A stretch of DNA of 64,000 nucleotides from Isoetes taiwanensis (taxonomy: Eukaryota; Streptophyta; Lycopodiopsida; Isoetales; Isoetaceae). Below, in pieces: positions 1-38,605 of this stretch. The DNA is taken from the NCBI GenBank assembly GCA_021234155.1, contig JAJEKV010000008.1:21216487-21280486 (forward strand), written 5' to 3'. How positions within the stretch are numbered: position 1 is the stretch's first letter; each line of letters starts with the position of its first letter. The position numbers and the translations under genes are program-made. The notes under the pieces were generated by a model. That model was not told the origin of the DNA and made no database searches. It worked only from the letters and a program-made list of their open reading frames with translations.

Positions 1-3000
1 TATTAACAGTTTGTTTCAGACCAAAATGTTGTAAATATTGCCCATTTGAGTCCCCATTTTGATTCTGTTATTCCAAACCACGAGTTACTCCTTCTGTTCA
101 GTCTCTCACCAATCGCCCGCAGGCACTCCCGAACACACACCACTGAGACCCTCCGATCCCACCGCATGCCCAGCCCCCTGACCATTCCCCATAAAACCGA
201 CACGATCTGATGCTCATCCCCTCGATCTATCTCCTCACACGAAAATATCACATCTGACTGCTCGGAGGAGAATGGTTTATTCAATGGCTCAGATCACTGC
301 AACAAGGAGAAACCTTCTGGCGAGGCCGGAAGCGTTCACGGAAGCCCGCCAACGCCACCGTTGAGGGTGTCGACTGGTTGCCTTGAACGATTGCACCCGA
401 CCGAAGAGGCACAGCCCGACACCTCAGGTCAGAAGACGCACCGAAAACATCGACTGCAGCATCCACGTCAGCTGCCGGAACACCGCCAGCAGCCGAGAGC
501 CATCAGCAGACCAAGCGACCATGGCTTCGATGTGGCTCTCTGTCCACCACATACAATGACGTAGGATGGGCACATCGGCAGACAATCATCTCCATCAGAA
601 GCCGAGGCATCTGTGCTGCCTTCCAGCCAGCCCAGTCGGTGGCCCTCGCAGAACGGCTCACCCAGGTGACCCGGTCGCTGGCAGGTTGATTCGTCAGAGG
701 TAAAAGTTTCAATATCAACTTCAGCCTTCATGTTTCATATGTGCCAGTTTACGTCGCTGACACTGGCCCGAAAACGAAGTTTCAGAACGAAGAAAACCCA
801 ACGCACTGCCGTCAGAGCCGCCGCTCGTCTATATCAAACAGCCATCAACTCAGCCCCAAACAACATTCTTCTGCATCACGCCTCCAGCCCACGGGCATTC
901 CAGCCCTGCCATCAAACGCCATCACAGGCCCCACAACCGTTTCTCCCGCCCAAGATTCCCCATCTTGGCCCGCCCAAGCCTGCAAGAGTTGCAGCATGTG
1001 AGTTATCAACCCCGCTCACAGACATCATCATTGTTTCACATCGGCAGTGCACACTTCCGACGCCGTTTTTCCATAGTTAAAAATATCTAGGTAAATCTGA
1101 AGATGAACTTTTGAAACAAAATGGTTAACGGACCATTTACCTGTTATCTAACATCCAGAGTGGGAGAATTATCTGTCATATAATCAGGCTGAAGACAGAA
1201 GATACGGTTGTCTGTCTCTCAGCAGAGAGCCTGAGCCCAGATCTCAACAGAAAGCCTCATCCCCGATACGTATTGAAGACCACACGGTCTCAACAGCTTG
1301 ATCCCGCCAGCCCATGAACGCCGCGTACCACGCTCATCAACACCACAGTTACTGGAACATCAATCGGTACCATCCCGTAAAACACGGTAAACATTCCCCC
1401 GCATCGCAATCACGCAGAATCCACCGTTCACTCAACGCACACCGTGCCCATCCTGGCACTGACGTCTGAGAAACGGACATACTGAACTCATTGGCATGTC
1501 CACTTGTCACCAAACATCATTTAGGAACTAATCACGATCGTCATCCCTTTCTTCCAGATCGGCTATCTCTTTGAAAATCTTTTCGAAGGCCTCGCCATTT
1601 TTGTGGTACAACAGAACAGCTACAGCACCAGCCGCCTTGCGCCTTCACCCGCCTCGGGCCAGTCTCCATTCTTTCCATGTAAACATCTGAATCTCGAACA
1701 TATAAACACCATTGAACAAGGAACCGTACCGAGGTCCCACCATCGCGTTGCATCAACTCGCCAGGGTTCATCACACGGATTGCAAACCACCTGCCATCGT
1801 GCGAACACGGTTCACCTCAACTCCGCACATACGGAGTTCATCACAAACGCTGATGCCCAACCAGCCGAGCAACACCGGGCAACATCATTCATGTCTCACA
1901 TGAAGATGGCTAAATTACAGAAAGAACAAACAGGCCCGCAGCGCAACCATCTGGATGAGTTGCACCTTTAAAAGCTACAGATACAAAGTTGGTTTCATCA
2001 TTTAACATAAACAAAATACCTCGGTAGCGAGACGAACACGAGACAAGATCTAATTGTTCACTTGTAACCATTCGCTAACATTTTCATCACTGAGAGCCTT
2101 GAAGCACAGGTTGCGGAGTAGCGAACAGTTTCTCAGACGCGTACAAAACGGAACCCGCCACCACAGCACACTGAAGCTCTCATATTTTGACAGTAACGCA
2201 ATTCCCATATTCGACCACATCGAGGCGCCAGACATCCATCTCCACTCCAAACCACCTGCCAGAACATGCATGGGGACCCATGCCCGTTTAACCACTTTTC
2301 AGAACAAATGGCTGGCTCACCTTTCCACATCCCACCCCATACAGACCGAGGCTCCACACTTCCATATCTGTAACATAAACAGCAACCACACGGCCAAAGC
2401 CCAAGATTTTGCCCATCCCGGCTCGCGGCAGAGCGTTTGAACTGCGAACGACAGTCCACATTCAGATATGATCTGCACCAACAACTGAAGACGAAGATCT
2501 GTCCATTACGGCGATTTGACAGTAACATCCAAAACATTTTATTCAGACCACCCGGCATTCGAAGAGATCGACTAAACAGACTATTCAAGTCACCGACGTT
2601 GACAGAGTCGGTAATTCAGTTTTCAGTCGATGAGGTGGCGCCATCGTTATGCGTAATCGAACACCCCTTTTGCGATAACCGAAATAAGCCAAAGAGGAAT
2701 CATCTGTGCCATCACTTCCACTTTGATTAACCCACTTTGATACCCGAACGCCAGCCAAAGCTTGGTATTCCAGAATCTAACCGGTAACAACCAAAATTTT
2801 CGCGATGTCGAAAACCAAAATCAGACTATCTGTTCAACATCTCCTCATACCATCTTCACAGTTCACCAGCAAGACCAGACCGGCATGAGGAACATCCTGC
2901 GGCGAAACACAGTTGTAGCTGTCAGGCCTACTCTTCAGGTTTCACTCCCGCATTACGGTATCTTCCAGCTTTCATCGTCTCGATCACATCGGTCATCAGG

Positions 3001-6000
3001 TTCATGTTACGGCCGGTGAAAACACCTTCTCCGATGCCGTCTGTTCCGCCATCCTGACCACCTCAATCGCCCCATGCCGTCGCCACGATTCGACGAAAAC
3101 ATTCTTCAGGGCACACGATTAAATATCTTATCATATTCTATGTTGCGAGCAGCATCGCCACACGTTTTCGATGATGTAAATCGACATATCTATTGATTAC
3201 ATCGTCGCCCGCTCACCGCATCCATGCCAGCCGAGCGCGCGATTTGCGTTAGTCAGCGCACAGGACGGCCACCGCCAGCTGTCGGCAGCAGCATTGCCGT
3301 ACCTGGTCGGCAGCGTAACCTTTGTTAATCAAGATTGTCCGCGGTCTCATTAGCACAACGGTCGACACCGCACCCCACCTGTCTATTCATATTTGTCCTT
3401 CTGTCGACTCAACGACAAAGTCATCCACATCTCCGTATCTGCCGCCAACGATGCCTGCGACTGCGCCAGAATCACTACTTCAGTGCTCAACAACCCCGCA
3501 CGGCTTACCCGCCGAGTACCATAGTCACTTCCCAGAAACGGATATCTTCACATATGTTTCATAATGCGCAAATTACGCCATTTCGATTTTGTGTAACAGT
3601 TTCAGACAAATAGGCATCGCATAGTCGACGAACCATCACGGCACACGCCACGTCTCGCCCAGCACATAAGGGACCAACTCTGGCAGACCCCGCTCGCGGT
3701 GCACCCAGAGGCCTCGCCCGCAGCGAGACCAGCAGAGTCTCATTCGGTGAGATGGATGATGACTCATCGCCTGGCCTCACTCATGGGGAGGGAGGTTGAT
3801 CAACAGTTTGTTTGTTGCCAAAGATGCTAACGGCTGTCACACCTTCTGCGTTTCCCTGGCAACTGCCCAATAAACCCAGATTTTAGAACAGAACCTGCCT
3901 GGGCCTCAGAGCTCCGCCCACTTTTGTCACTGCTTCCAGCTTGTAGTGGGTCGTCACGCGTTCAGCCCGTTCGATATGCTTTTGACTTAGTCAACAACAT
4001 TCATCTCTCAAAACCATTTGTTCTACATCTGGTTGCGCCCACCACCACCCCACAGCCAGCCAGCCTGCCATTGGCCCGCTTAGTTCAGCTGGATAGCTAT
4101 TTGACCATGGCAAACTGTTCTGAGGCCGTTATTTAGCCACCGTCGCCAGAGGTCTTAGCCGGCGCGAGCCAGAACCAGGCTTGGCGGTCAACGGCCGCCT
4201 GACTACATCGGCCATAACTCAGCACAGTGCCCACAAGAACACAAGAAACGTCCTGGCTGCCTCATTCTGACGCCGAGTGATGCCCACGTGCCTCACGGTC
4301 AATGGCAACCACTGCTCACGCCGACAGCCGCGGCCCTTCAATCACCAACGGTATCAACGCAACACCACGATCTCTGATCGGCTCTACTGCAACCCAAAAA
4401 TGGGGCCCCAACCCAGACCATACCCTTTTCTCACGACAAGCGACATAGCTGGCTCCCATGGATCACGCCCAGGAAAAAAATGTCCTTGATCTCCGATGGA
4501 AATCTCTTCCGTTTTTCGCGGAAGCCGCCATTGAATCCGGTGAAATTTCCGATGGAACCTTCCTCATTTCCACAGAGTCCTTCGGACTTCTGCACCTGAA
4601 AGAAGAAATCTCCATAGAAATTATGAAGGCTCTACGGAAAAATGGAAAATTTGGCGTTCTTACTAAAAAACGAAAGGTTTCATCCCCTTTTCATACCACG
4701 TCACACGGCGACCCGCGACCTCATGCCAGCACGATGCCACCCACGATGGGCATGCTCACGCGCACGTCACCGAGCACTGTACCCAATTACAGGGCCCCTC
4801 CCACGGTCGCGTGAAAATGAAAGGTTGGAGAACCGTGGCACCGTGGCTCAATATCCCATTGTACTTGAAGCGATATGTTTGAACGCGAAGAATGGTCGAG
4901 TTCCACCGGAGTTACGGCGATGAAGACCTTCCGTGGGGAGTATAAAATCGCCGCCGACCGGATTTACAGTCGGAAAGTCAGGCCATGGGATAGATGACTG
5001 GAAGGCAGCTGTTCCAGTGCCAGCCACCCCAGAGTTTGCTATTAAGAGACCGTTGTCTGTAGCCATCGCCCATTTCTTTGCCTTCGCGGCAGTCCTTAGC
5101 CACCGCGGCACTGTTCCAGAGCCCGCCTCTCACATTATCCCGCCAGTTCAGAACCCCGTTGAACCACACCGCGTTCGCCGCTTCTTTAATGACAGTTCTT
5201 CTTCTTCGTTAAAATTGATAATCAAATAACAGTTCTACGATAGACCAGAGCCTGTTATCGAGCAGCATACAGTCAATTGCGGGTTATTTTGATGAAATGG
5301 TTCTTCTGTTGTCGAAGTCTGCGTATCGCGCGCCGACCGGTTCTATTTGAACTCGCCGCTTACCCCGGTCGTCGGCGAAAGCAGATCGCGCTGGCCTGCA
5401 TCTCGAATTCGAAAATTGCTGCAGTTAAAACTCCACGAGAACCGTCAGCCCGGAGGGTGATTGCTCAGAATCGATTATCGCCAGTTTGTATATTGCAAGA
5501 ACAACAGTTCTGAACGTAAAATCACCATCGACATAGCAACATTTCATTCGAGTCCTTCAGATTGTATGCTCCATCACCAGTAGGGGTTCGAGATGTAAAT
5601 TGTAACAGAATCTTCAGGCCTGTACGACGAGCCTGTTCACTGTTTGCTTATCCGTCTTTCCCCATCCGGACCAGACAGGCCTGCTTCCGACGACGAGGGC
5701 GCCCCGGGCGGCCCCGGCGAGCGTACCTTCGTCGTCACCACGACCTGCCGCCACCTGACGCGCTCCGTCAGCACGGCCAGCAGTTCCTGCAGCCTGACTT
5801 CCTCCCGCAGACCGGGCCCAGCACCGCATCCGACACCCACGCCCCATGCACCATCGCGACTTGAAATATACGCCATCTGTCGTTTCTGATACCAAACATC
5901 AATCCTGAAGACCCAGACACGATCGTCTTCATGAACACACACGGTTATCGACGCAGTCAGCAATTCCACAAATTTACGTTCGATCAGCGACGACCACATC

Positions 6001-9000
6001 AGCCAATCTGAAATCATCGAGCGTGCCATCTGTCGATTACGGGGGAAGAGCTGAGTCGTTGTCTCATAGCCAGACGCGTTGTTGATTCCGCGCCTGATGG
6101 TCACTACATCAATCTCTACCAGGGTCATCTCTTCGCTAGTCTTCACGTTGGCAGAATAACGAACAGTTCAATAATCGCCAACTCTGTGTTCTACGGTCAT
6201 TAATGTGTTGACATGAAAACATAATCAACTGCACGTGCCCTCGCATTTCAGAGCGTGTCGCCAGACAAGTCTCAGAGTCCTGTCAGGCCAGACATCATAG
6301 AACCTGCCGGCGTCGCCAACCACCAGAACAGACAGATTGCATGGTCAATCGCCACTGCTTGTTGCTGACATTTCACTGCTCATCCCAGCCCGATCAACAC
6401 AACAGATTAAAAGATGGCAATCATATTCCCAAAATTGTTTTGACCACCCAGCAGTTCACAGAACCGTCCAACAGCCGCACGAGATGCACAACCTGCGCCT
6501 TCATTGAAGTTTCGTAGTACGCTTAGAATGTCGATGGTTTACGGTTCATTCGAGTTGAGAAGAACGCCAAGTCGCTGAAAGATAGTCTTTGAAATATGAC
6601 GCGAACACCGTATCTCCGAAGACATCTTTCACCGCCGAGGGCCCGCATCATCAGTTCGACGTCGTCCCACGCATGATGGTTATTCCCCAACGTTGCCGTC
6701 GATTCAAACCCACAACATGCGCATGAATTAATTTGCCTTCGTTAAAAACTAAAGTCGGGTACGAACCGCTGAGAAGAACTACACGGCGTTTGACCTCCTC
6801 GCGCGCAATCGCATCGATAATGCCAATGCCTCTTTTCCATAACCGACAGCCGATGTGTCGCATCATGCCGAACATGACATATCATTCTTTCGCATTTGGC
6901 CGGAACACTTTCAGGCACATTCGAAAACCCCAGACGGAATTAGCATCCAAACAGCCGAGCAAGATTTCGCCGCGCCTGTCAGATGTCATTGCGCGAGCAA
7001 GAGCCGAAGAGTATTGCGCATCAGGATATTTTGAACTGTACAGCAGTTATTTGCAGCACGAAATTTCATCGCTTCGATAGCACGCTAATAACACACATCC
7101 ACCACAACATTAGCAGAGAACGTTGCCATCGATCATCACCATAAATGACATCCCAAGGCATTTGTTTAAAAGAGATCGCCTCATTGTTGGCAGTCTCAAC
7201 AGCATCGAGATCATAGCATCAGATGCCACACGTTGCGGCATTCGCTGAAACAAGATATTACCGCCTTTATAAACCCTCCACCGATATTCCGATAACCACA
7301 TCACGCATCTCGCAAGCGAGCCACATGCCCCGTTACCCATGACCAATCAAACCCACCAGCCACACGCGCCGAGACGAACAACCAACGATCAACCTCTGAC
7401 ATGCCCCGATTACACGACAGCATCTCCAGACAACACACATTTGCTCGAAAACTATCAATATCCTGTTGTCCACATGTCACTGTGTCTGTCATATTCGCTG
7501 ACGCATTCCGACAAAATACCGTTTCTTCGTCGCCCATGTTGACATAACCGCACTGAAATATTCCAAGATCAATGCACATCTTGTCAATATATTTCGCATC
7601 TGTAAATCATTATTTCGTCATACATTTAGTATACAATTGTCGAGTCCATTTGCACATGTAGCACGACTGCTGATCTTCTGACAAAGCCTGCACAGAACAA
7701 CGTCTCGACATCACCCAGCTGCTTCACCAGCCTTTCGACACTTCCAATTGCGCCCACCCCCACACACGTCGAGGCGCAGCCTGTCCCGTCGGGCCCCGCC
7801 CACCAGTCGAAACCCCAGAAACCTTTGCTGTCGCCAGCTGCCACACGACAAACATGGCCTTTACAGAACACATCCACCCAGCACGGCACCACACCGCCAA
7901 AAACAGGCCCCTGGCGCGTTTCCACATCAGCCATCCTCCGCCCACCAGCGTCGCGATTAAATCATTGCAACACCACGAGGCCCGTCACGAATGACCTGTC
8001 ATTAACGATAGCATGGGCCAGGCGTCACACGTCAAGCAGAGCCGTTTCAAACACCGCCTGATGGGTTGCAACGGCCCAGACGGAGCAGACCAATTACGTA
8101 CACGTTGAACCCGCGATTTATGGGACGTCATTGGCCCAACTTGCGCACCTCGACAGCAACACGGTCATTAACTCCTGAGGTTACACACCATTGGAGAAAA
8201 AGTCGATTGCACACAGCCCAGGAAACTGGCAACGAGTTCACACCACACAGCGACGCCAGCAGAGATCGCTCATCTGAGTTCCGCTACTCAACGTCCGTCA
8301 CGGGAATTAACATACCGCTAGTCCTTTCCATGAACCCTTTACTCACCAGACCGATACGTCACAGAACGAACAGTCCACGGAAAGCAGTTTGCCATTTCTC
8401 GACAGCCATCGAGCATAACAACTCATCACGCCCACGCCCCAACACAGCGCAGGTAACCAATGTGCACGGTTCAGCACGGATAACATATTACGAAAGACAA
8501 AATGACGCGATGCTTTCAATGTACTGCGACGGTAAACGACGCGTCAACACCACCGCAGCGAAATAGCTCAACACCACCACAACATACAACTTTTCATGCC
8601 AATCAACACCAACACATGCGAAGCCACCATGATTACGCTCACCGTCAATCGTCATTGAAGATAAAAGAAGATACAATTACGCTTCACCATTAATCACCAC
8701 ATCACTGCCGCGAGTTCAACTCGAAGAACACGCAAGTCCAGAAGTTCGGCAACGACCACCACCAGCGTCATTTCCACAGTGTCACGAAATCTCTTGAGGC
8801 AATCGCAGTTCGCAACATGCAAACACCTGTTCATCCATTGCATCGCGTTATGTTATCACACAAGCCCGCGCTTGTTCATAGCCTTTGTACGAAGATCCAT
8901 TCTCCAACATCCCACCGCCGACAAGAGCGCCGTTGTACCCGTCGAAACAACCGCCCGCACCCTGAACCAACCGTCGTTACCGCTTCATTTTCTAGACCGA

Positions 9001-12000
9001 GATCAGAAGAAACGCCGGCATCGCTCATCTTCAGTATTCGGTTTCCTTGCCGAATCTTCATTGTCAGTCATAACAAAGACCTCTATCAATAACTTCTGCG
9101 CACCTTCGAATCGCATCACCGGTATCTCCGCCGAACGGCATCAAAATCCAACGGCACATGTCTCCGTGATATTCGTCAAGACCGGAACCGTCGAATGGCG
9201 GAGGGAATGCAGACGGCCAGTTGCACAGTCATAGTGGGTGAATATCAACCTGCTCAGCCGACAAATACGGAATAAGAACGACCTGTCAATTGGTTCCAGA
9301 GATCGTCAACAGCGAAAGTCCCTTCATTCATAGACCCGGCATTATGTAGTATTTACCGACGAAGGTCAACAGCTCAGCATGACGCCACATCACAACATTT
9401 GCATGTTACGGAGGATCCTCTCAATATCAACGTATACAAAGAAGGATCATCGTATCGCCCATGCCATCGATCAATTTCATTCATTGAGTGCTTTTGCCAA
9501 AAAGATCCATTTAACTTCATTTGAGGGGAATGATGTTGCCAACATGTTGGCGACAGTTGAGGCGACGCAGCTTCGACATTCACGTTAGCAGCACATCAAT
9601 CGCACGCCTATTTGCTTCAGCGGTCATTGATAATCGCCTGCTTCTCTACGATGCTGTCGCCATTCGCGCACGACATTACGCGGAAGAAAAAGAATGCCGG
9701 GAGTCCTTCTTTCCGTGGTTGTGGTCACTGTTGCTCCCCTCGGCATAGCAACAGCGTCCGATATCAAACCACCATATTTCGCCGCGAGCAGTTATCGTCG
9801 CCACACCGCCAGTTCAAGCCTTCAGAGTCGCCATAAAGCCGTAACAACGGTCTCCAGCACAGTTGCACGATACGAACCAGCCACATAACGCCATACGTGG
9901 GTCTGGCGTACATGTTTCCTGTACGTCCGTTGAGCATGTTGCATTGATGCGCATCGGGCGAATGAATTGCGAAGGAAGATCATCATGAAGCGAATGAAGC
10001 AACAAAGGAAATATCATCATGGAACTTCATAAAGAAGAACTGGCGAGATGCCGCCATTCGGTATTGCTGAAGCTAAGAGGTAAGCGTCGTTTCACCATTA
10101 CGCTGAAGCTGAAAGAAGAAGCTGATGTTGGTCGGTTTGCAAAATTGAAATATCCGCCCAGCAGAGTTTTCGCAAACCGACCACCGAACAATAACATCTC
10201 GACGCCGACCGTCTGTCCCCGCCATATTGTTGGCAACAATGAGCGCAGTTACCTTTACGCAGCATGGTCATTTCATGCTGAAATTTGTTCTGCTTGCCCA
10301 AAAATGAACAGCCGCATTTCCCCACCCCATCACGCTCACAGGCCACCAACGCACGGCGAGAAAACGGGAAAATGTGCACCGACCGGCAAGACCACCTGCA
10401 CCAGCGTCACCGCCCCACCGTGACGCTATCTGACAGAGGTTGCATAGTTACCGGAAGTTGCTGAAGAATGATGGACATAGCATCGTGACCAGCGAAGATG
10501 GAAACCTCCACGGCATGTTCTTAGTCAGCTGACAGAGACGGCCGAGCCAATTTTCCCGAGTCAACAAGGCCACCGTGAACCCAGCAACTAATCATGCATT
10601 CACAGGCACCGCAGGCGCATGCATTCACTTCATATTTAACAAACGAGTGAGCTCAAAGCCCAACCCACCCAGTCGCACCAGCCTGGCACACAACTGGTGA
10701 ATGCAGCACCGAGGTGCAGTCGGCCAGGCCGCCAGGCAGTCGAGCACGGCTGATGACCGATCACAGCCAGCCCGCCAGCAACATCGATACGCGCAGCATA
10801 CGCCAGTTACCAACATGCCCACACACCACATAACCAGGGTTTGCCTCCAGGGCAAATTGTAACCATCAACTTTGAGTGATCGCTTTCAAGAACGACATCG
10901 TTAAACAGGTCTGGCAGAACAACGTTGAACGTAAAATCAAAATCGACATAAGCAACATTTTTTCATCGAACCTTCAGATTAGAACCGAATATCGAATCGA
11001 GACGCAACCAAACCACCGTCCGCCGCCAGCACAGCAAGTGACCAGCCTGTCGACCTCGACACCAGAGGAAGAATCAAGGTTCGATCCATGGAGCAGACCC
11101 GACTGCCTCCCACCTGTGCGATCGCATATCGAGCTTTTGGCGACGGTCAGATCCGCGATTTGACAACGACGCAGAAGATCTAAGAGGGGCCGATTCTCCC
11201 GCCGGGGCAGACATCAGTCGGGCAGAGGTCTATAGTTCAGCTGGTAAGAGCATCAATTATGGTTCGAATAGTAGGTTCACCACTTGCCACCGGTCGTCCG
11301 CTCGTACCGGCATCACAAGAAAACAAACACACCGTAAAACGACCACATATTTTTCGGCTCAGCTGCCATTTTGCCGACATTATTTGGAGCCCCAATCAAC
11401 CCGCCCAATTGCACCGCAGCCATACCACGGGTGACTTCGATTTTATTTTCCAGCGAAATCTTCTCGCACACCCGTAAATTCGAAAATCCTTCCAGTTTCA
11501 TAAGAAAACGGAGGCTCGCCCATGAGAAAACGGAGGCTCATTAAAATGCACTCAATCAACGGTGAGCGCCATCTACCCGTTGAACACACCCTTTCTCCAC
11601 GTTTCAGCAGTCCGCATCGACGCAGACAACCCGGATCCGACGCTGCGCTGCGCGGTTTCAGCATGTTGTCATTCACCCACATCCATGCATGGAAAGATCC
11701 AAGACAGCGAACTCACCGCACACAACTGTTGACCGGTGAGTCGCTCGTTGTTCTTCAGATGTTGTGAAGCTTGCGGTCGATAACACTGCGCAGGTAATCC
11801 GAACGCTTGCATGGAAGACCGTAATCGACGTTATTTGTCATTGTGTTATATTCTTTAGAAATTGAAAGAGGATCAAGATGAAGATTTTGCAAAACAGAAG
11901 GAGGAGGAGTGTTGCGCAGATCACGTCTGTACCAGACGACCGTGGTCGCATCTTTCAGAACGCGTGAGCGGTAGCCTTCATCGCCAAACGTTTACGCGAC

Positions 12001-16934: not shown

Positions 16935-16958
16935 AAACCCAAGGCCCTGTATGTGCTC
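16910..16958. other. Axis of the palindrome
   Basis: Bases 16,888-16,909 and 16,959-16,980 are the innermost inverted match I can align; both carry an ATAACC/TTATCC and CGCA-type core. That leaves a spacer of at most about 50 bases centred near 16,934. The base composition changes abruptly here. An almost spacer-free axis is typical of fold-back reads and also of true hairpin inversions. Confidence 0.8.
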
Positions 16959-16989
16959 TGATTATCCCCATAACGCATTACTTTAACCA

Positions 16990-20650: not shown

Positions 20651-20659
20651 GGTCAAATA

Positions 20660-24765: not shown

Positions 24766-24780
24766 GAAAACCTCGCTTAT

Positions 24781-26790: not shown

Positions 26791-26799
26791 TCAATGAAT

Positions 26800-28640
26800 C
26801 AGACAAGGCCAGCCACAATGCATAAAGATGATGCCGAGGTTACGCAAGGTTTATTGCTCTAGAAGTGCTGTATTAACGAATCAGGTAGCCAAAAAGAGAT
26901 TCATTAAGGGGAAACCTAGATACTAAGGGCCTTTAGAAGATGGTGAAAATTAAGCAAGTGTTGGTCAAATTTGATTCGTATTAAAACAACTTATTCTTCA
27001 AATGACTTGTGCTTTGTCCCAATTTCATATCTCCAAGAGATTTCTAGAAAGGTAAGCTTAGCAATAGTTGTTGGTCTGGCGCAAAGATGGATTGTAACTT
27101 ACTGGAATTTTAGCAAGCATATGCTATCAATAATACGATGTTAGAGTTCTTGGAAATAATGACCATACAAAAAACTATGACAAACCCGCTTAGGCATGGC
27201 TCATAACATAAATACGCTTGCAATGGTTCTAATTTTGGCTTTGGGTGTTTTGCATATTTCATATTGTGGCACTTGATTTGCTCTAAAGTTTCCGTGTTAT
27301 ACCTGGAAAATACAATACTTTGTGAACGCCTTAGTCCGCTGCAAAATTGGCTTCTGTAAGACTTGGTATGTGTTTTCTTGTGCCGAATACATAAACCGAG
27401 TAATTAATGGTACTATCAAAAGTATATCCATAGGCTTCATCTTGCTTTATCTTAATGGTAATTAATGGTAAGAAAGCATATCCATAGTGGCTTCTATCTG
27501 CTTTATCTTCTATTCAAAATTGGTTATTTTATTTGGTGGCATGAGAAGAAAGTTCAACTTATATTTTTATTTTATGAGTGAATTGTTGAGCTATTGTTTT
27601 ATGAGGAATTGTTGTTGTTTTCTCCGTGGTAGTTTTTCTCGTGGTTGAAGCATCTTTTAAATCCACCATAAGTTATCCTATTTTACATGCTCGCTATTTA
27701 TTTTCTTATGGCTACCGGAGCCTTGGAGCTATTGCATTGGTTTTGCATACTCCACTTTCTTATTATATTTAAACTTTATTGATATGTAGGTTGGCCCATA
27801 CTCCTTAAGATGTACTCAGAAAGTAACTAAGCCTTTCCATGTTTGTTTGTTCTATTTGTTGTAGCACTTATGGTCCCTCTTAGACATGTTATAAAGGTTC
27901 ATAGAGAAAATTTCATGACATATTGAAAATTCCATGACTTAGTTAAGGAATAAGTGCTTGAACTCAAGATAAATCAAGCAATCTACTCTTTTAGCTTCCT
28001 CATATTAAGTGCTAATTTAGGCTTATTTTATAGTTTCCTCGGGCTATTGTACAATCAACTTTTCTTTCCAATGATGAGGTATGTAGCCTCAAGAATTACC
28101 GATTGTGGCCATGTTGTCATTTTGTGGTATGCATGTTGGAATTGTGGCATCCCACAAAATATGCAGCTTTAACATTAAGTGTATAAATTGAGGTCCATTT
28201 GTTTTGCTCGTGGTTTTCTAGACGCCATTTTTTCAACCCATAAGGCAATTAATTTTTAATAAACATCTACTTATTCAAAGATGTAGCAAATTTTGCAAAG
28301 TTTTTCATAATTATTAGCCCAACCCCAAGAGGTCATTTATATTTTGATTTCTCATGGTGTTACTTGCATTTGTCACAACATCTTACACTAGTAAATGAGA
28401 GAAAATTCTTTAATGCTTATAGAAGCACGAAATTTCATATTTTTCACGGAGTGGTGCTATGCTCTATGATGTCGGCGATGGATCGTAATGATTTCTATAA
28501 AGTAGGCCATGACATGCATGCTTATAGCTAGCTTCAACGTATGTCTTATATATTTAATAAAGGTTTTCTAGAACTTTTTCCAGCCTAGTGAAAACCTTTA
28601 AGAATTTGACAATGAGAGGATAGGGAAAGCTATCTTCCAA
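26800..28640. other. No gene seen
   Basis: AT-rich intergenic sequence. A short local repeat of the AGCATATCCATAG / GCTTTATCTT type lies at 27,420-27,510. The open frame at 27,954-28,172 is hydrophobic but isolated and has no family features. Confidence 0.45.
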
Positions 28641-28659
28641 GATTGTAATAGGAAATGAA

Positions 28660-30290
28660 ATAATTGGAAGTATCAAGAAAAAAGGCTTCAAAACAAAATG
28701 GCTTCATTGATGTGCCCAATCAACGTTGTTCTAGTACCAAGGCTTTGTCGAAGGTCAATATTCATTGCTACATAATGCAAAATGGATTGGATCAAGATGT
28801 GTCCTATCTAATTTGCTTATACAAATGTATGGCAAGTGAAGATTTACAGAATGCAAGGGCTATATCGACAAGATGCATTCCAACGCTTATTCTTGGAATA
28901 TTTTAATTGCGCTTTATGTCCAACATAGGCGCCTTGAAGAAGCTAATCGGTGTTTTTATCGATGCCCGCGGCGGGATATAGTAACTTGGGAAAACACAAG
29001 GATTGGCATATGGACAAAGAAGGCAACTTAGAGATGGCCAAGTTTTCTGCCAAATGCCCCAAAATATAACGTGTGGTATCCGGAATGCCAACACATACCT
29101 TACTAAACAAGGGCATATCAAGGAAGTTGACTGTTGTCCAACAAATGCCTTCAACGTAATGTAATTTCATGGAACACTATGATTACAACACGCAGTAACA
29201 TGGGCAACTTGAGGACGCCTCGAAACTCCTTGCAAGAATGTCCGTGGAGAAATGTCGCTACATGGAATTTCTATAATTGGAGGTTTTATAAAGAGGGCAA
29301 TGAGGCTTTGTATATCAAGCTTAACGAATACAACGATGTAGCATCCTACAACAAGCATGATCTCAAATTTTGTTGGGGCTGCCAACTTAATGAGGCAGAT
29401 ATCTCTTAAACAAATGCCTTATAAGGATGTTGGCTTTATGGATCGATGATCAAGAATAACATTCTCTCATAGCATGTCGCTTAATAGTGGATGTGGTAAT
29501 GTTGATTATTAACATTGCTATCAAACATTAAGGAAATTTCATGCTGCAAATAGCTACTTGTTTTGGAGTTCAAAGTTATCTAGTCTGGGCATTACTCTTG
29601 GCTCTGCCTTCTCCTAGCTCAATGACATCTCGGGCTTAGAATGGCCAAATATTTGCTCAACAACTAGATTATAATTCCATCTAGAGGAGGTTTGCTTTGA
29701 AGATGTGCACAAAGTGTTCAACCAAATGTGTGAAAGGAATATTATATCATGTTCAACCATGATTGCAAAGACACATAGAGCATGGTTATGGAAAGAGGCA
29801 TTTGGCATTTATCAACAAATGCGTGCTTAGCAAAGGAGAGTCCAAATACCATTATCATATAGTTCTTCTCAACTAAGCATTTTAGTTTTTTAATAAGGCA
29901 ATTAATTCCATGCACATGCTATAGTGGTTTGAATTCAACAACTATCGCTGGGAATGCCTCATCAATATGCATGGACGACCGATAATTTGAATGATGCATC
30001 CGAGATTTCAACCGGATGGATGAGAAAGATGTCATATCTTGGAATACAAATTGTTATGTATGTATTCCCATTATGGTTTTTTCAAAGAGGCCCAATATCT
30101 TTTCAATGTGACGCAGCTGTATGGCTTCAAACCAGATGAGGCCATGTTCATCAAGCCCCAATGCATGCACTATCAGAGGCCTAATGAAAGTCGCAAGAGT
30201 TTGCCAGTGCATCTTCAACGTCCGCAGCAACAGATTAGAAGAATCCAAATGACAATGAAAGCAATAATGCCGCATAAATTCTAGCTCCTA
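28660..30290 (+). pseudogene. Decayed PLS-type pentatricopeptide repeat (PPR) gene
   Basis: PPR proteins bind organellar RNA through tandem helical repeats of about 35 residues. Pieces of repeats occur in order on the plus strand but in changing frames. QNGLDQDVSYLICLYKCM and LQNARAI at 28,780-28,870 correspond to the usual 'NGLD.D.FV.N.LI.MY.K' and 'L.DAR.IF' blocks. NAYSWNILIAL and RRLEEAN follow at about 28,880-28,960, then RRDIVTW. EDVHKVFNQMCERNIISCST, followed by MIAKTHRAWLWKEAFGIYQQ, lies at 29,697-29,820. DNLNDASEI and a DVISWNT-type block are at 29,980-30,050, and a FKPDEAMFIK block at about 30,125-30,165. Several stops and frame changes break it. No E or DYW domain is visible downstream. 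The motif order makes the family assignment firm; intact function is unlikely. Confidence 0.85.
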
Positions 30291-31296
30291 TTTCATGTGG
30301 TTGTCTTTGGCAAGATACAACTTGGAGTTCTACACTGACATACAATGACTTACATTCTAGAAAATACAACTTGAGTTCTACAAGGACATACAATCGGGAT
30401 TTCACACTCTAGAAAATATGTGACAGCAAAGGAAGGCGAAAGTTAATATTTTTCCTTATCCGCTTACATTTAATATTATCGCCTTCATAGAACTTACAAA
30501 GAGTTATGCGTTATTGAAGACTATTCATTATTCTACTTTAACATGCTTAGAAATTTAATTCGCATGGTATTGCATCATTCCTCTAACTATAAGTTAGAGA
30601 TTGTGCAAGTGATTACATCTTAAACTTAAGCCACCGGAATCCAACAACACGCCTAGGCTATAAGTTATGACCTCCAAGCATTCTTACATCATATCGATAC
30701 CATTCTTACACCATATCAATGAAATTTCAAATTAGCAATTTTGGTCTTACCATCCACTGGTCCAAACATAAACATAGAAATTGCATCAAGACCGCACTCC
30801 CTCGTGATCAATGCTCATATATGGCTACGATCTCTAAAGGTGTCATATCTAGGTCTTGGAATTGGTGTTGATGCTTTAGAACATAAAAACAACAAATAAC
30901 GCCTCTTCCTACAAAGTACGTAAAGCTGCCCGCAAAAAGAATAATAAAAATCTCATGTCAGGAATCTCAAGTCATTAGCACCATGCTATAAATAGGCTTG
31001 GTCCATGCACAATTCATAAACAAAGGAAAATAAAACAACACAAAACAAAACCCCCCTTTCAAACCATTACTAACCCCAAACACATCAAATGACCCAACAA
31101 GAATCATGAAACGAAACGACAGCAAGAAACATGAAAACACACTCTCGGGCCACCGAATGGCAACCCTCCGTGTGCAGCACCTTGTTTGAATGGGCTTAGC
31201 TGCAAGCTACGAATTTTCAAGGTTCAGGGGGGAAGGGGACGGATAAGCCAAACTAACCATTGGACGAACCATTCATTTTTGGAAGCACAAGTTCCT
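30291..31296. other. No gene seen
   Basis: AT-rich sequence with no sustained frame. A short direct repeat (CTTGGAGTTCTAC / CTTGAGTTCTACA with ACATACAAT) lies at 30,318-30,400. The 3' end (31,190-31,230) carries GCTTAGCTGCAAGCTACGAA, which recurs at about 31,500-31,530 just beyond direct repeat copy B. Confidence 0.5.
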
Positions 31297-31495
31297 GTTT
31301 TAGTTTGCATCTCAGTTTTTTCTGGTGATTGGAGCATACAATCTAGAAGAGTTTCCAGGTAAAGAAATGTTGCTTGTAATCGATTATTGATTTTTTGCAT
31401 TCAAAAATTTGTTATTTGCTTTGCAATATACAAAACTTTGCTCTTTGATAATCGATTCTTGGAGCAATCCCTTCCTCGAATTTGATAGGTTTTAT
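31297..31495 (+). repeat. Dispersed direct repeat, copy B
   Basis: Same-orientation partner of 24,560-24,765, with the same ordered blocks (CTAGAAGAGTTTCC, AAATGTTGCTTGTAATCGAT, ATTCAAAAATTTGTTATTTG, GCAATCCCTTCCTCGA). The copies are about 6.7 kb apart and bracket the exon-like remains and the PPR relic. They could be solo pieces of one dispersed family or the ends of a larger duplicated unit; I found no target-site duplication or polypurine tract to call them LTRs. Confidence 0.8.
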
Positions 31496-31530
31496 AAATG
31501 GGTTTAGCTGCAAGCTACAAATTTTCAAGA

Positions 31531-32219
31531 TTCTAAAGGGATGCAAATTCAAGCACGATCTGTTTCCTTCAAGCATTTTCAGGTTAAATGTGGTTCAAAT
31601 CGGATATTCGGTCAGCTCTAATGCTGATCTGTACTATGGACTTTCAGTAACTTAGGGGAAGGGTTATTTCATCAAAATCTTGCAAATTTGAACTGCAATA
31701 TACATATATACAGAAGTAAACTTTGGGCTCTAATTCTATGTCAGGCTCGCTTATTGTTTGATTATGCAATTTTAACCAGAAGGAGAAGGGCTTTAATCAT
31801 TAAAAAGAACGCAGGGCACAGATTTAAATAGTTGGGTTTGTCACAGATTTGAAAAACATGGGTTGAATCATGAAATTTTTTTGAATCTGGATAATTTGCC
31901 ACAGATTTGAAGGCTGGGTTTGCCACAGAATTGAGAAATCGTCATGATAGAAAAACCACAGGATGCGGTCTAGGGCCAGATTTCTTGTCACAAAATACTA
32001 AGAACAAGCATGCCTTTTCTGGAACAAGCATGCCTTTTTCGGATCATCTATATCCCATGGCGAGCTCTTCAGCTCTGTAAAATCCCTAAATGCCAGAGTC
32101 CCATTGCCCCCAGGCGGCCGGTTTTATTATCGCTCCCCTTTTGGAGATCTTCATCGCCATAACCCGGGCCGGTTCCAGTACATTTGCTGCAGCAAGAAGA
32201 GCATATGGCTTCAAAAAAT
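31531..32219. other. No gene seen
   Basis: Low-complexity, TTTG/CACAGATTTGA-rich sequence (31,830-31,950 repeats 'CACAGATTTGAA' three times with variation). No coding signal. Confidence 0.45.
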
Positions 32220-32720
32220 TTTAATCAGATGTGGAAACCCTTCCTATTTTTCCCCGTTTGTGAAAACCCTTTCTATTTTCCCACGGCATTGGAAAATAGG
32301 AAGGGTTTCCATATGAATTAAATTTTGAATTCTCGAGTGACGTGCATATGTGTGAGCATGCCCCATCAATGGGTGGCATCCGTCTTGAAAAGCATGGTCC
32401 ATAAAAGGTCACTACGTGTAATATTATAAATATGAAAAAAAAAGGGATGGAAACCTTTCCCATTTTTTGTGGAAGCACTTCAGGTTTTCCCATTTTCCAT
32501 GGAAACCCTTCATAATTTCTATGGAGACCTTTCTTCTTTTCCAAATTTAGAAATTCGGAAGGGTTTCTATGGAAATTAGGAAGGGTTTCCATGGAAATCC
32601 TTCCTGGTTTTAATGAAAGCCGGAAGGGTTTCCACGAAAAATAGGAAGGGTTTCCATGGAGATTAAAAAGTTTTTCCATGGAAAATGGGAAGGGTTTCCA
32701 TGGGAGGCCAACCCAAATCG
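32220..32720. repeat. Cluster of inverted 13-mers (GGAAGGGTTTCCA and its complement)
   Basis: The 13-mer GGAAGGGTTTCCA or its reverse complement, with small variants, occurs about ten times in 500 bases on both strands. Examples: TGGAAACCCTTCC at 32,232-32,244 facing GGAAGGGTTTCCA at 32,299-32,311. That pair extends to a near-perfect 21 bp inverted repeat with about 45 bases between. Others lie at about 32,500-32,515, 32,552-32,567, 32,580-32,592, 32,617-32,636, 32,643-32,656 and 32,687-32,703, many running into the palindrome TTTCCATGGAAA. A transcript across it could fold extensively. The 152-codon minus-strand frame here is only the repeat translated. Confidence 0.75.
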
Positions 32721-34086
32721 GGCGTACATAAAAGCATCGTAGGGAAAGGGTATGGTCTGATTTAATTTATTTTTTGGGTTACCCAAGGGCAAACCAGTGG
32801 GAGGTCGGCTGGTGGTATATGCCATTTGATACCGATTGAAGTGTCGTCTGGCTGTTGAGATTGAAAAGAGGAGCCACGCTTGTCAGCGTGAGCAAGTGGC
32901 TCGGTTGCCATTGATCTGCATGAGGCACATTAGGGCGCCATCTGACCGTCAAAATTAGGGGTAGCTAGGGACGTTTCTTGTGTTCTTGTGTTTTCTTGTG
33001 TTCTTTGGGTTATGGCCATTGCTCGATAGTCAAGGCTTTGGCCATTGTTACCATAAGCCTAGTTCCCTGCTCTGCTTCTTCTGAGCTAAGACCTCTAGCA
33101 TTTGTTCAGCTAAATGCTTGGCCTCAGACTTAGTTTGCCATAGTGCAAATACTTCTATCCAGCTGAATTTAGAGCGGTTGCAATGTAAACGAGGCTGCAT
33201 GCTAATGTGGAATAATTTGCCAATTGAAGATAGCACGGTAGTTAATAGAACAAATGGTTTTTGGAGAGATGGATATTTATTGACTAAGTCAAAAGCATAT
33301 CAGTTTGTTTTAAGGTACTCGTGACATTTTCTAAGTAAGGTAGTGATAAAAGTGTTGGAATACAAGAATTGACACGGTTCTGTTCCTAAAATCTAGGGTT
33401 TGTATTAGACGGTTGCATGATTTGTGGGGAAACCTTAGAGAATTGTGACAACCGTTTATATCTTTCGCAACAAATAAGGCTTGTTGATCTCAACTTACCT
33501 CCCTCCCCCTCCCCCCCATAAAGGAGTGGGAGGGTAGGCGTGGGAATTCATATCCATCTCACGAAGATGTGGGATATATACCTTGCTAGTCTCGCTTGCG
33601 ACGAGAATACTTCGGTGCACAGACAGGGGTCTGCCAAGTTGGTCCCTTAATATGTGGAGCTGTGGAGCAGGATATTGGCATTGTGCCATCTTGATGGGAC
33701 ATTCATTTATACGATGCCACAACCATGCAAAATGTTACACAAAGATCGGAAGTAGGGCTAGCCCACCATGGCATCCCACAAGAGTACATTGCGCATTGCT
33801 TGGGAGCATGCATATGTAGAGATATCCGACCTTTAGGAGAGTGACTATGATTACTCCGAAGAAATGGAGGTAGAAGCCATTAATAACAGGGTTATTGAAC
33901 TCTAACAAGTATATTGGTTCTAACTTATTCATAGGCATCATTGTGCGAGGGCAAGATCTGGAGAGGTCTTGGATGACTTTTGTCATCGTTGGAGTCAACC
34001 AAGAAGAAGGGGGACAAATATAGATAGACAAGTTAGGAGGTCACACCCCAGAGGATGTCATTTTCGATTGTGCACAATGAGACCAC
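32721..34086. other. No gene seen
   Basis: Moderate composition, only short frames. A homopolymer-rich C/G tract lies at 33,503-33,535. The stretch 33,119-33,200 includes CTATCCAGCTGAATTTAGAG; its inverted, altered copy in the left arm resembles part of a tRNA, but this version does not. No domain recognised. Confidence 0.45.
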
Positions 34087-34332
34087 TTGGACAATCTGCA
34101 ATTGGCAAGGTTTACATGTGCACAAAGCACACCGGCCAAGGTTTACATGTGCACAAAGCACACCGGCCATGATCCTTTCACAACTGCTGAGGGTTGGCCG
34201 ATACCCATGCGCTCTGAGCTATTGCAAATCACTGCACAACAACTCCGAAGCATTGGGATTGCCCGGGCAGCATGGGACTATACGAGGGTGAGAGGGCCAG
34301 AGATTAGGCTGACGATAAGCCCAATCTATTAG
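34087..34332 (+). other. Unidentified 81-codon frame with internal duplication
   Basis: The frame has no family I recognise. Its second half reads like real protein (DPFTTAEGWPIPMRSELLQI, then QQLRSIGIARAAWDY). Its first half is a 31 bp tandem duplication (34,108-34,169), which shifts the reading frame between copies because 31 is not a multiple of three. CpG is higher here than in the flanks. It may be a remnant of an inserted element or viral-type gene, or chance. Confidence 0.2.
34108..34169 (+). repeat. 31 bp perfect tandem duplication
   Basis: The unit beginning AGGTTTACATGTGCACAAAG occurs twice head to tail (34,108-34,138 and 34,139-34,169) with no mismatch. It contains the palindrome ACATGTGCACA-type core. 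Recent duplication or a read artefact are both possible. Confidence 0.9.
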
Positions 34333-35092
34333 ATTATATATCGGTTTACAATGTCCAAGAGAACATGTGGCAGTTAGCATACTAACATAGGATACTTGAT
34401 AAGATGTTTAATCGTAATGCTTTTCAGAGAATGACCATTCGATCTCGTCATGTTTTAGCACAGCAGCACGTAGGCGGCAACATGGAGACAGATTGGGGGA
34501 GTCAGGAGAGTGGGATGGCAGATTGGATGGCATCAGAGAAGGTTATTTTTCACCAGCCATGGCACCCCACCCGCTGAAAACTCGGTGGACCTGGTTATTG
34601 ATCTTAGTGATCCAGGACGATAAAATGCTAGAAGATGCCATAATGCAGGTAAGGAAACCTATAAGAAATGCCATTAATTGCTTCTAACTCTGATGTTTTC
34701 ACATGCCTTGGGATGTATTCCTCTAGCCACCAGAATCTCGATCTTTGTCCCTTAGGCAGAACTATGAAAGGTTTTAATTATATGAAGGAAGATGTTGGAC
34801 AAGATAGTATCTATTGTTTAAATTTGGTTTTTCCGACATGCCGAAAATTTTTTGGATTTTATTTTCAGGTTCGTTTTCTAAGGTCTAGAAGCTTTTAGCT
34901 GCCGGAAAAATTTTCAGGTATCCAAAAATTGGGTTATCCAAAAATTAAATTGTCTTTTAGATTGATTCCTCTTTTGGCTTGGCTCGAGGTTATCCGCAAA
35001 AAGGGAGGTGATTCAGTTCTGCATGGCAGGTAGGCCACCTCATCGACTCCAAGAAGGCTAGATTTACCAGCAGTCTGTGTCTTCCAATGTCA

Positions 35093-35171
35093 AATTTGAA
35101 GCGCCAGATAAAATGTTTTGGTCGGTCTCTTTCAAGTGCCGAATTTGAAGTGCAAGATAAAATGTTTTGGA
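35093..35171 (+). repeat. Two-copy tandem repeat, period 49
   Basis: AATTTGAAG followed by GCGCCAGATAAAATGTTTTGG, then AATTTGAAG followed by TGCAAGATAAAATGTTTTGG 49 bases later. The inverted left-arm counterpart near 2,540-2,570 preserves AATAAAATGTTTTGG once. Confidence 0.8.
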
Positions 35172-35608
35172 TGAGCGTTGCCTGTCAAAATCGCAAATAT
35201 TGTGCGTTAGATAAGCTGTCTTTTGGATTATTTTTTATTTTCGTCCTTATCTAATTCTTTCGGACTGTATGTCGTTTCTCAGTTCCATCCTTCCCTTGCC
35301 GCAGGAAAACTTCAGATGGAACCCAAAAATGCTTCAGCTTTTGGCACAACTAAATAGTAGTTTTTCTTTATATTACAAATATAAAATGTGGAAAGCCTCA
35401 TCTAGTCTAGCTTATAGAATTGGAATCATGGAAAAATGAGCAAAGGTTATTTGTTCTAGAAAAAAATTAGATTAAACTTGGGCACTTGGGTCCCATGCAT
35501 ATTCTAGCAAATGAAGTAACAAGGATGGAATGGATTAATCTGCTGCTCTCAGTAGTTGGTATGGAATCGAATATAGAATTTGCATTACTATCAAAATATG
35601 AGCTTCAA

Positions 35609-35647
35609 TTGTATATAGTGACAGTTCCATTTTGCCACTATATACAA
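35609..35647. other. Perfect 12 bp inverted repeat (hairpin)
   Basis: TTGTATATAGTG at 35,609-35,620 faces CACTATATACAA at 35,636-35,647 with a 15-base loop. It falls inside an 80-codon plus-strand frame (35,486-35,728) that I do not recognise and do not call as a gene. The stem is not kept in the left palindrome arm, as expected if that arm is unreliable. Confidence 0.7.
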
Positions 35648-35759
35648 CTGTCACAAGGAAAAGCCTATTCATGTTCTCCCATAATATATTGCTTCAAGAC
35701 TTCCTCAATTGATGAAAATGTTGCTTAGATGAATTTACAAAGTGAAGACTAGAAAGAGA

Positions 35760-37430
35760 TATATAAATTCGATCTTTACGCTATAACAACTTGTCTACAT
35801 TGTTTGTCTCGCTTACGGGGTATTTTTGTTTATGTTAAATGCCCAATTATAAAGTACTTTTATTATCTATAGCTTTTAAAAAATTTTAACTCGTAGATGG
35901 TTTGCATACGTTTTTCTTTTATTTCTCTTTCTATGATTGCCATCTTCATGTAGATGTGAACATAGATGATGTTGCAGATTGTTTATAACCTGGTCTTTTT
36001 CCTATTAATTTGGAGGCACATCTAGCGAGGCTATGATAGACTCTCCATTATGTGCAGGTTACAAGTGAGACCACGTGTCCTTTTTTGTGCTTGGAACAAA
36101 GTTTGTTGCAATCCATCATGATGAATCCACAAGGTCGAGTTGTTACAACTATATGATGGTAGGACCTCGAAATTTTGGTTCACAACAAATGAAACACACA
36201 GGAATTCTGCTGCCATGATTAAAGGATTCAAAGATGTTTACATGAGAAGAATGGAAATTTGAGCGTAAATCGCGAGATTTGGGGGTACAAGGGCAGCTAG
36301 TTGCCTTAATGTCTATTCTAATTTAGCCTTACAAAATGGCAGGACCTTCGAGAAAGACAAAAGGATAAGCAGTCCTGGGAAAGAAAAAGGATAACTAACT
36401 TTCTTGATCATTGTTAGATTTTCATATAATGTTTGGCAGGGAAAACAAAGTAGACATACCAAATGAGTTCAATATAATCAGTACTATACCAATTTGTCAA
36501 CTGTAGGATCATTTTATTATGCATTGAAGTAGACAATTACGTTCTAAGTATTGCAATGCAGAATATTTTTTACATGTTTTTTACAAGGACAATTTTCAGT
36601 TAATTATTCCCAATAACTATGTGAAGTGCCCTGTTAATTAGGCATGCATGAAAATTTTGCAGCATTCCCCTCACATGTCAGCATTTGACAGGATCAAGCC
36701 CTATTGTGTATTGATTCCAAGACCATGTAGTCTTCAATACATGTCATGGGATGAAACCCTATTGTTTAGAGATCCCAAAACCATGTCAAATGCGTCTACT
36801 AAGTCTTGAATACAACCATGTCTTCTATGCTAGCCTAATTATATAGCAAATAATTCTCCACTTTCTAGGATGTTAGATGTAGGTAAATGGTCCATTATAG
36901 GCCTGGTTCAACCCATTTTGACCTAAAAAGTTCATCTTTTTCAAAAATTTACCTAGATTATTTTGCTATAGAAAAATGACGACGTTCAAGGTAAAATATG
37001 CCTGCACGATGTAGAAATAGTATGAATGTCTGTAAAAAAAAGCCAGAGTTGTGCTCCACATACAACACAACTCTTTGCAAACTAGGCGACAAAATCGAGA
37101 ATCTTGGAACGCGGAGGAAACAGTTTAGCTAAATTTTTGCTGCAGTAAAACTGTTTAGAATGCTTAGAATATTTAGAATGCCGTAAAACTGTTTAGAATC
37201 TTTAGACTGTAGTAAAACTACTTAGAAGAAAATGTTGTTTAGAAGACAAGTTGAAGCTAAAACATTTTGATATAAAGACCGAACGCGCAAACTCCCCAAC
37301 AACAGATCGTTAAGAAAACTTAAGGTTTTCTTCATTCTAAAACTATCGGTTTTTTAGTGCCAATGTCAACGACGCCATAGCCAACACATATATAAAACAT
37401 AAAGGAGTAAATTCAATATTAAACTTACCT
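35760..37430. other. No gene seen
   Basis: AT-rich sequence without sustained frames. Local near-repeats of CTGTTTAGAAT / TTTAGAATG type lie at 37,140-37,230, and of a CCCTATTGT.. / CCATGT.. type at 36,700-36,800. Confidence 0.45.
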
Positions 37431-38190
37431 CCTCCTGTTGAATCAACCTCGCAAGCAGTTCACCTCCGGTGAGGGCACTTCCCATGTCTCGTTCCTACTC
37501 TGAAGGGTACTCAGCTAAGACTGGCTTTCCTGGAAGGTAGCCTGGATGCCTCAACCTCTGATGGAGATGGTTGCTAGCATCTCCTGCTCAGATGCTGCTT
37601 ATCCTCTGTCATTGCTTCTATGGTGGTGGACAGGGAGCCCACATGAAACCGCAGGTCGGCGAGACTCTGCTTGTCTTGATGGCTCTCGAAATGCACCAAG
37701 CGAATGATATCTTCCATATCTTGTGTGTGTGGATCTCCATCTCTGCAATCCGATGTTTTCCATTGCCAACTGTCTTCTGAGTACCTAGGGTATCAAGGAC
37801 TGTACCTCTTCTGTCAGACCTATAATTCGGGTCTATTCTTGCCTACAATCATTTCAAAACCTTCGTCAGCACCTCGTTTGCCGTCGGACCTGGGCAACAG
37901 TCAACCATTTGCTGGGCTTACCTCGTTGACTGGGCCTTCATGTCTCCCGCCTCATAGAAGAGGTTTCTCCCTTGTCTTTGCAGTCTGATCTAGGCCATTT
38001 TCATTTGGGCCAACCATTTGGTCCTCCCAGGAGAGCTCGTCATGTGAGGGGTGGTCAGATGGCAGGTGTTTTTACGTATGAGGATGGGTCAAAGGGGGAT
38101 GGGCATCTAGATCGGTATCAGGGACATGGGAATGGGTCAAGGGGAGCTGGGCATGCAGATTGGGATCAGAGGAGGGGGTCTCATAAGTAG
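37430..38190 (+). other. GC-richer stretch with possible coding remains
   Basis: Composition rises here relative to both flanks. Plus-strand frames at 37,704-37,988 and 37,972-38,190 are open and overlap; the second ends in a Gly/Arg/Asp-rich tail (GHLDRYQGHGNGSRGAGHAD). I recognise no domain. It abuts the tandem monomers at 38,246, whose unit resembles the sequence at the right end of LINE copy 2, so this could be the body of a related element, but I see no reverse-transcriptase motif. Confidence 0.3.
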
Positions 38191-38245
38191 GCATGGCTAT
38201 TCAGGGTGCGGAAGATGGGGTCCAGGCAGAGACTAGGGCAAAGAG

Positions 38246-38605
38246 GAAGTATTGCTCGTAGGACTTTTGGGATGCTTAGAATCCAAAATGGGGACTCAAA
38301 AATGACGTATTTACAACATTTTAGGGGTCTGGGGGCGAAACTCTAGTGAGAGAATAGGGAGAGAGAAGTGTTGCTTGTAAGACGTGTTGGACGCTTAGAA
38401 TCCAAAATGGGGACTCAAAAACGATGTACACACAACATTTTGGGGGCCTGGGAGCAAAACCCTAGTGAGAGAATAGGCAGGGGAGAAGTGTTACGCGTAG
38501 GACATTTTCGATGCTCAAAATAAGAAACGGGACTAAGAAACGATAAACATACAACATTTTGAGGTTTGAAAGCAAAACCCTAGTGAGAGAATATGGATCA
38601 AAATT
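38246..38605 (+). repeat. Three tandem monomers of 119-120 bp
   Basis: Units start at 38,246, 38,365 and 38,485 (GAAGTATTGCTCGTAGGAC, GAAGTGTTGCTTGTAAGAC, GAAGTGTTACGCGTAGGAC). Each has a block like GCTTAGAATCCAAAATGGGG, an ACAACATTTT block and ends near ACCCTAGTGAGAGAATA; the third is more diverged. A related single block (GCTTAGAATCCAATTTGGGG, TTTTGGGCGTTTGGGG, CTAGAGAGAGA) lies at 49,030-49,130 at the right-hand end of LINE copy 2, on the same strand. This suggests a repeated 5' region of a LINE family. The left palindrome arm at 1-66 matches the first unit. Confidence 0.85.

Follow-up and report, generated by a model that had tools for sequence, protein, structure and literature searches.

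A 38-kb palindrome in the Isoetes taiwanensis assembly is very probably a fold-back nanopore artefact at a gap edge

We analyzed a stretch of 64,000 nucleotides (the window) from the Isoetes taiwanensis assembly (C1089:21,216,487-21,280,486; assembly size, 1,658,258,908 bases in 1,110 contigs). The first 16,934 bases of the window are a noisy, inverted, and shortened copy of the next 21,416 bases. We consider this mirror-image copy to be a fold-back nanopore artefact in the assembly rather than a chromosomal palindrome (our probability, approximately 0.96), and the feature is very probably not real genomic sequence. About 31 kb at the gap edge look raw, and about 17 kb very probably have no separate existence in the chromosome. 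The features referred to below are as follows.

1-16,934, minus strand: left arm, a noisy inverted copy of 16,935-38,350 on the basis of BLAST, global alignment, and composition; probably the return pass of a fold-back nanopore read
16,934-16,935: axis of the fold-back; the homologous contig C914 stays collinear with the right arm as far as 16,940 (i.e., C914:264,158)
16,935-30,800, minus strand: locus sequence apparently left uncorrected, probably the first pass of the same read; approximately 40 to 50 small indels per kb where tested (24,009-24,937 excluded), with strand-biased transitions in 16,940-24,008
24,009-31,181: right-arm stretch without a partner in C914, mostly a repeat with copies elsewhere (approximately 24,938-31,187); also in the left arm (match fraction, 0.598) and used as an error yardstick
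30,800-38,350: polished contig with few small indels, also copied by the last part of the return pass (approximately 1-6,000)

Results

Alignment of the two arms

A blastn comparison of 1-16,934 with 16,935-38,350 yielded 54 local matches, including 30 with E values of <0.01. All 30 were on the minus strand and strictly collinear, running from (17; 38,331) to (16,546; 17,431). A sequence-only reading of the window had proposed a collinear inverted copy of this extent, and the single diagonal bears it out; the three anchors that it named sit on this diagonal (2,526-2,542 and 2,625-2,702; 4,084-4,334; 17-66).

Global alignment of the reversed left arm with the right arm gave a score of 3,532, while the controls scored 4 and 4 (two Markov-resampled left arms) and 3 (the unreversed left arm), and a fourth control consisting of unrelated window DNA gave zero aligned blocks. 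Among the 21,416 bases of the right arm, 13,070 (61%) matched, 2,479 (12%) were mismatched, and 5,859 (27%; 1,924 events) were deleted in the left arm, with 8 bases outside the alignment; 39% of right-arm bases were therefore changed or lost. Insertions in the left arm amounted to 1,383 bases (719 events). The longest gap between the arms was 29 bases across approximately 21 kb, and the match fraction per kb was nearly even along the arms (0.54 to 0.67). The ratio of left-arm to right-arm length was 0.791, in agreement with the scale of about 0.79 estimated earlier. On the right arm, the first aligned pair was located at most 10 bases from the axis, leaving little spacer.

Regarding alignment parameters, three alternative scorings were tried. 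The looser one led to an equivalent result (13,064 matches; longest gap, 29 bases), and the arms failed to align globally under the two stricter ones. The end-to-end alignment therefore depends on permissive gap costs, while the BLAST diagonal does not.

Composition and error spectrum of the left arm

The G+C content of the left arm was approximately 0.51. Its observed/expected CpG ratio per kb was 0.81 to 1.31 (17 bins starting at positions 1 to 16,001), compared with 0.20 to 0.98 in the bins of 17,001-39,000, and the left arm, although shorter, contained 1,186 CpG dinucleotides, compared with 386 in the right arm. The altered composition that had been remarked on from the sequence is thus substantiated.

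Differences between the arms were strand specific. In right-arm orientation, A was replaced by G at 14.1% of A sites and T by C at 3.7% of T sites, and the A-to-G excess was present in all eight 3-kb bins (the last bin being short). In total, the return pass contained 1,111 A/G and 332 C/T changes. The match rate also varied with the 5-mer (chi-square per degree of freedom, 4.2; 234 5-mers). The 5-mer match rates in one half of the arm correlated with those in the other half (r = 0.59; 257 5-mers), and the rates of 5-mers and their own reverse complements agreed less well (r = 0.23; 201 pairs). Strand-specific, 5-mer-dependent errors together with frequent skipping would be expected from a nanopore base caller. 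Deletions are described as the most frequent nanopore error, with a global error rate of approximately 5.7% for bacteria in high-accuracy mode; A-G errors occur at 3 to 5 times the frequency of transversions, and C-T errors are only slightly commoner than transversions (PMC8486125). In a real duplication, both arms should resemble DNA that has evolved in the genome; the left arm does not, in view of its CpG content, its strand asymmetry, and its dependence on the 5-mer.

Comparison with a homologous contig

Contig C914 contains a reverse-oriented homologue of the window, with approximately 3% substitutions in the polished part. The longer BLAST pieces between C914:223,624-264,158 and window positions 16,940-39,902 and 50,000-57,913 were 89 to 98% identical, and C914 is either a haplotig that escaped purging or a segmental duplication of recent date. 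Low-Ks syntenic pairs on separate scaffolds are mentioned in the Isoetes genome paper (PMC8566536). The order of C914 was kept in the two stretches compared (window 50.0 to 57.9 kb, and 39.9 to 16.9 kb apart from insertions). C914 is collinear with the window up to the axis and then runs on with other DNA. Given its divergence of about 3%, C914 is not the same allele and cannot prove that the window haplotype is free of the duplication. Two stretches to the left of the gap had no C914 match among the best candidates scored, a result that is uninformative in both directions on collinearity across the gap.

We used sites at which the right arm and C914 differ by a substitution to trace the source of the left arm. 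In the polished part, the left arm carried the right-arm base at 131 sites and the C914 base at 8, and it was deleted at 30 and had a third base at 11. A BLAST-based count over the 13,208 partnered bases of the whole arm gave 280 sites following the right arm and 56 following C914 (173 deleted; 38 with a third base). The 7,173-base stretch of the right arm that is absent from C914 is also carried by the left arm. Because right-arm bases were followed at 131:8 over C914, we conclude that the left arm was copied from the right arm. Given the shared variants and the shared right-only stretch, this copying should not predate the split between the right arm and C914. Nevertheless, the left arm differs from the right arm more than 10 times as much as the right arm differs from C914.

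Raw-read-like errors in the right arm

The sequence-only reading had regarded the damage as one-sided, with an intact right arm. This did not hold, since raw-read-like errors were also found in the right arm from the axis to approximately 30.8 kb. Relative to C914, indel events numbered 333 over the 6,847 aligned bases of the inner part (two blocks in 16,940-24,008) and 40 over the 6,057 of the outer part (five blocks in 31,182-37,997). Plus-strand C/T and A/G differences between the right arm and C914 were 143:36 in the inner part versus 51:62 in the outer part (P = 1e-9). Seen from the minus strand, the inner C/T excess is an A/G excess, which is also the bias of the return pass. The nanopore signature of A/G over C/T errors on the read strand was thus found in both passes (1,111:332 and 143:36).

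If the inner differences arose as first-pass errors, the C914 base would be expected to turn up often in the second pass, and this was the case. The left arm sided with C914 at 49 of 140 resolved inner sites versus 8 of 139 outer sites (P = 7e-10; 123 inner and 41 outer sites, deleted or with a third base, were not counted as resolved). Similarly, where the right arm lacks bases, the left arm agreed with C914 in 89 of 179 resolved inner events versus 0 of 10 resolved outer events (P = 0.002; ties, 16 inner and 2 outer). Where the right arm alone has additional bases, agreement of the left arm with C914 was seen in 78 of 104 resolved inner events and in 8 of 12 resolved outer events; such events are not informative, because bases drop out of the left arm in any case and the outer control also favors C914.

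The repeat in the stretch without a C914 partner allowed the remaining interval to be assessed. From 25 to 30 kb, the window differed from each of five chosen repeat copies by 40 to 49 small indels per kb, while the five copies differed among themselves by 0 to 14. The corresponding values for the window were 20 to 27 in the 30- to 31-kb bin, and the indel excess dropped away at approximately 30.8 kb, which we take as the outer boundary of the uncorrected stretch (within a few hundred bases). The window copy of the repeat could not be distinguished from the other copies by its longest stop-free stretches. Overall, positions 1 to 30.8 kb look like one raw nanopore read, consisting of a first pass followed by a degraded return pass.

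Assembly context

All of the 20,000 bases upstream of window base 1 are N. The N run begins at C1089:21,139,426, and four 200-base probes in between were N as well; its length is approximately 77 kb (77,061 bases if unbroken), although N may have a source other than an assembly gap. Since the N run adjoins base 1, the palindrome terminates at the edge of known sequence.

According to the Isoetes genome paper (PMC8566536), the assembly (1,658.30 Mb; 204 scaffolds and 909 contigs) was generated from nanopore reads (v9.4.1 flowcells) with miniasm, racon, and pilon and was scaffolded with Bionano maps. LR_Gapcloser was then run twice to fill gaps, with a pilon step separating the two rounds, and haplotigs were purged. 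As described for LR_Gapcloser (PMC6324547), the tool chooses the read covering most of the gap and pastes it from the gap edge to the end of the read, without consensus, leaving the rest as N.

A probable fold-back read at a gap edge

Taken together, these results are best explained by a fold-back read. The polished contig would have ended near 30.8 kb of the window, at a scaffold gap, and one uncorrected nanopore read, probably a single physical molecule accounting for 1 to 30.8 kb, would then have extended it, most likely through a gap filler. This read would have started at or beyond 38,350, followed the minus strand to 16,935, folded back, and returned on the plus strand to its end at window base 1. 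The start of the read is hidden in the polished part, and its reach to approximately 38,350 is seen from the alignment. Re-annealing of the arms behind the return strand may have caused the strand to pass the pore too fast, such that bases were skipped (hence the length of 0.79) and miscalled, chiefly A as G. The remainder of the gap would have been left as N. The left arm, previously described as a recoded-looking copy, would thus be neither a decayed nor a recoded genomic copy; most likely, it represents the return strand of one molecule, poorly read and ending at an assembly gap. The earlier interpretation stands as to the inverted copy, its scale and composition, and the doubt cast on an old duplication; the intact right arm and the recoded copy are to be given up.

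The properties of the two arms can be compared with published systems. Fold-back reads, in which the second segment is the opposite strand of the same locus with little or no sequence in between, make up approximately 0.55 to 0.6% of nanopore genomic reads in the account of Heinz, Meyerson, and Li (PMC12870357). The left arm is such a segment, an opposite-strand collinear copy with little spacer; unlike the reads described there, it seems to have been incorporated into an assembly as if it were genomic. Spealman, Burrell, and Gresham (PMC7229812) report that the return arms of inverted duplicates are faster, of low quality, with bases missed, and consistently shorter than the preceding arm, for which they blame base-pairing of the arms pulling the strand. 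The left arm is likewise less accurate, lacks bases (5,859 deleted versus 1,383 inserted), and is shorter. This lower accuracy and shortening is an expectation that we took from PMC7229812 and is not a criterion of PMC12870357. The duplications of PMC7229812 (yeast and human samples) are taken as real, whereas that of the window is very probably not genomic. In the fold-back signals inspected in PMC12870357, noise around breakpoints was not seen, unlike the badly degraded return pass of the window. A degraded return arm is therefore no general mark of fold-back artefacts, given that real inverted duplications show it (PMC7229812) and that breakpoints were clean in PMC12870357.

The fold-back artefact in combination with the gap-filler route is likely, and LR_Gapcloser would be the tool responsible. 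With a partial fill by this tool, one would expect a cleaner contig up to approximately 30.8 kb, followed by raw read as far as base 1 and then by N, and this is the arrangement found. As in the partial fills described in PMC6324547, a single uncorrected read seems to run from the gap edge to the read end with a sized N run remaining; unlike in an ordinary fill of that description, the read selected is apparently a fold-back. A fill in the second round fits better than one in the first, because pilon was run between the rounds. If this route holds, the gap before filling was approximately 108 kb. Choosing the read that covers most of the gap could favor fold-backs, because folding lengthens the apparent reach of a read; this suggestion is ours and does not come from the description of the tool in PMC6324547. 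Among titles, abstract openings, and best matches in the literature, we found no account of fold-back reads entering assemblies via gap fillers, which is weak evidence of novelty at most.

Alternative explanations

The same fold-back read may already have formed the end of a contig from the initial assembly rather than having come in through a gap filler, a minor but real possibility. Contigs of miniasm are built from uncorrected reads. Miniasm is indeed named in the Isoetes paper, but racon and pilon came after it (PMC8566536), and yet the error level shifts within a few hundred bases at approximately 30.8 kb. Moreover, the raw stretch reaches the N run, as in a partial LR_Gapcloser fill, and sequence at the far edge of the same gap likewise exceeds the differences among repeat copies (see below).

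A real and recent inverted duplication in the sequenced haplotype, with a left arm that is bad only because nanopore sequencing misread the second arm, is improbable. Real inverted duplications do give bad return arms (PMC7229812), and C914, as a diverged homologue, need not share the event. However, reads should enter a real duplication from both sides and correct both arms, and neither arm looks corrected near the axis, with cleaner sequence appearing only from approximately 30.8 kb. The left arm also stops at an assembly gap, and C914 is collinear to the axis with other DNA beyond. We consider it equally improbable that a very recent inverted duplication or a hairpin-capped break at 16,934, absent from C914, had its second arm spoiled by nanopore physics alone.

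An ancient inverted duplication whose left arm decayed, shortened by a fifth, and changed in composition would account for whole-length collinearity at low identity, but it is extremely improbable: right-arm variants (131:8) and the right-only 7.2-kb stretch are shared, making the copy younger than the divergence of about 3%, yet 39% of bases are changed or lost, every indel is at most 29 bases, and the changes are strand specific and 5-mer dependent with CpG restored, not depleted. The suspicion, raised from the sequence, that a real old duplication would look different is upheld by these shared variants, indel lengths, and error spectrum.

Several other candidates were discarded. ADAR-like enzymatic A-to-G change of a hairpin was rejected because 27% of right-arm bases are deleted; plants are not known to possess ADAR. 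We think a PacBio read with a missing adapter unlikely, given that the errors are deletion led and A/G biased on one strand; raw PacBio errors are insertion led. A search of the window for known structured RNAs gave no Rfam matches at gathering scores. A second fold-back at 44 to 51 kb was not supported; this region showed one inverted match of approximately 0.46 kb, one direct match of 65 bases, and a reverse-transcriptase hit below the Pfam cutoff.

Other gap edges and implications

To place the window among other gap edges, we considered five on C1089 (i.e., the two edges of each of two further gaps, plus the far edge of the window's gap). None of the five had a fold-back within 14 to 19 kb, although an axis further inside would escape detection except by composition; we therefore do not claim generality. 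The observed/expected CpG ratio per 2 kb was at most 0.90 at these edges, and one edge contained a GC-rich element (0.56 to 0.58).

At the far edge of the same gap (C1089:21,129,488-21,138,000), a repeat differed from three copies by 49 to 72 small indels per kb and 8 to 21% substitutions, while these copies differed among themselves by 8 to 39 indels per kb and 1 to 7% substitutions. This suggests another raw-read fill, although the copies compared are noisy themselves. At another gap edge, C1089:21,024,614-21,032,635 is a GC-rich (0.55 to 0.59) element of approximately 8 kb with terminal direct repeats that are approximately 74 to 78% identical; it has one relative with 86% identity on C1067.

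The artefact has modest bearing on data quality and assembly quality control and little on biology. Gene models, repeat counts, G+C and CpG scans, and synteny are unsafe at this gap edge. A simple screen would look for a collinear inverted copy that is shrunken, has CpG restored, shows an A-to-G bias on the read strand, and ends at N.

Additional observations in the window

Window positions 32,447-32,703 are a tandem array, partly of 22-base units, that also forms an inverted repeat of itself at approximately 72%. Within 45,001-49,000, three of the four kilobases are GC rich (0.57 to 0.61) amid AT-rich surroundings, and 46,143-46,685 contains a reverse-transcriptase-like frame that scores below the Pfam cutoff. 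Positions 45,501-45,964 and 50,266-50,724 are inverted pieces with 69% identity. At 60,615-60,920, a 160-base unit is duplicated in tandem (146 bases identical), each unit containing a 40-base imperfect palindrome (90%). Finally, 63,593-63,973 contains a frame matching the pentatricopeptide repeat PPR_2 (E value, 1.9e-7); PPR-type genes are numerous according to the Isoetes paper (PMC8566536).
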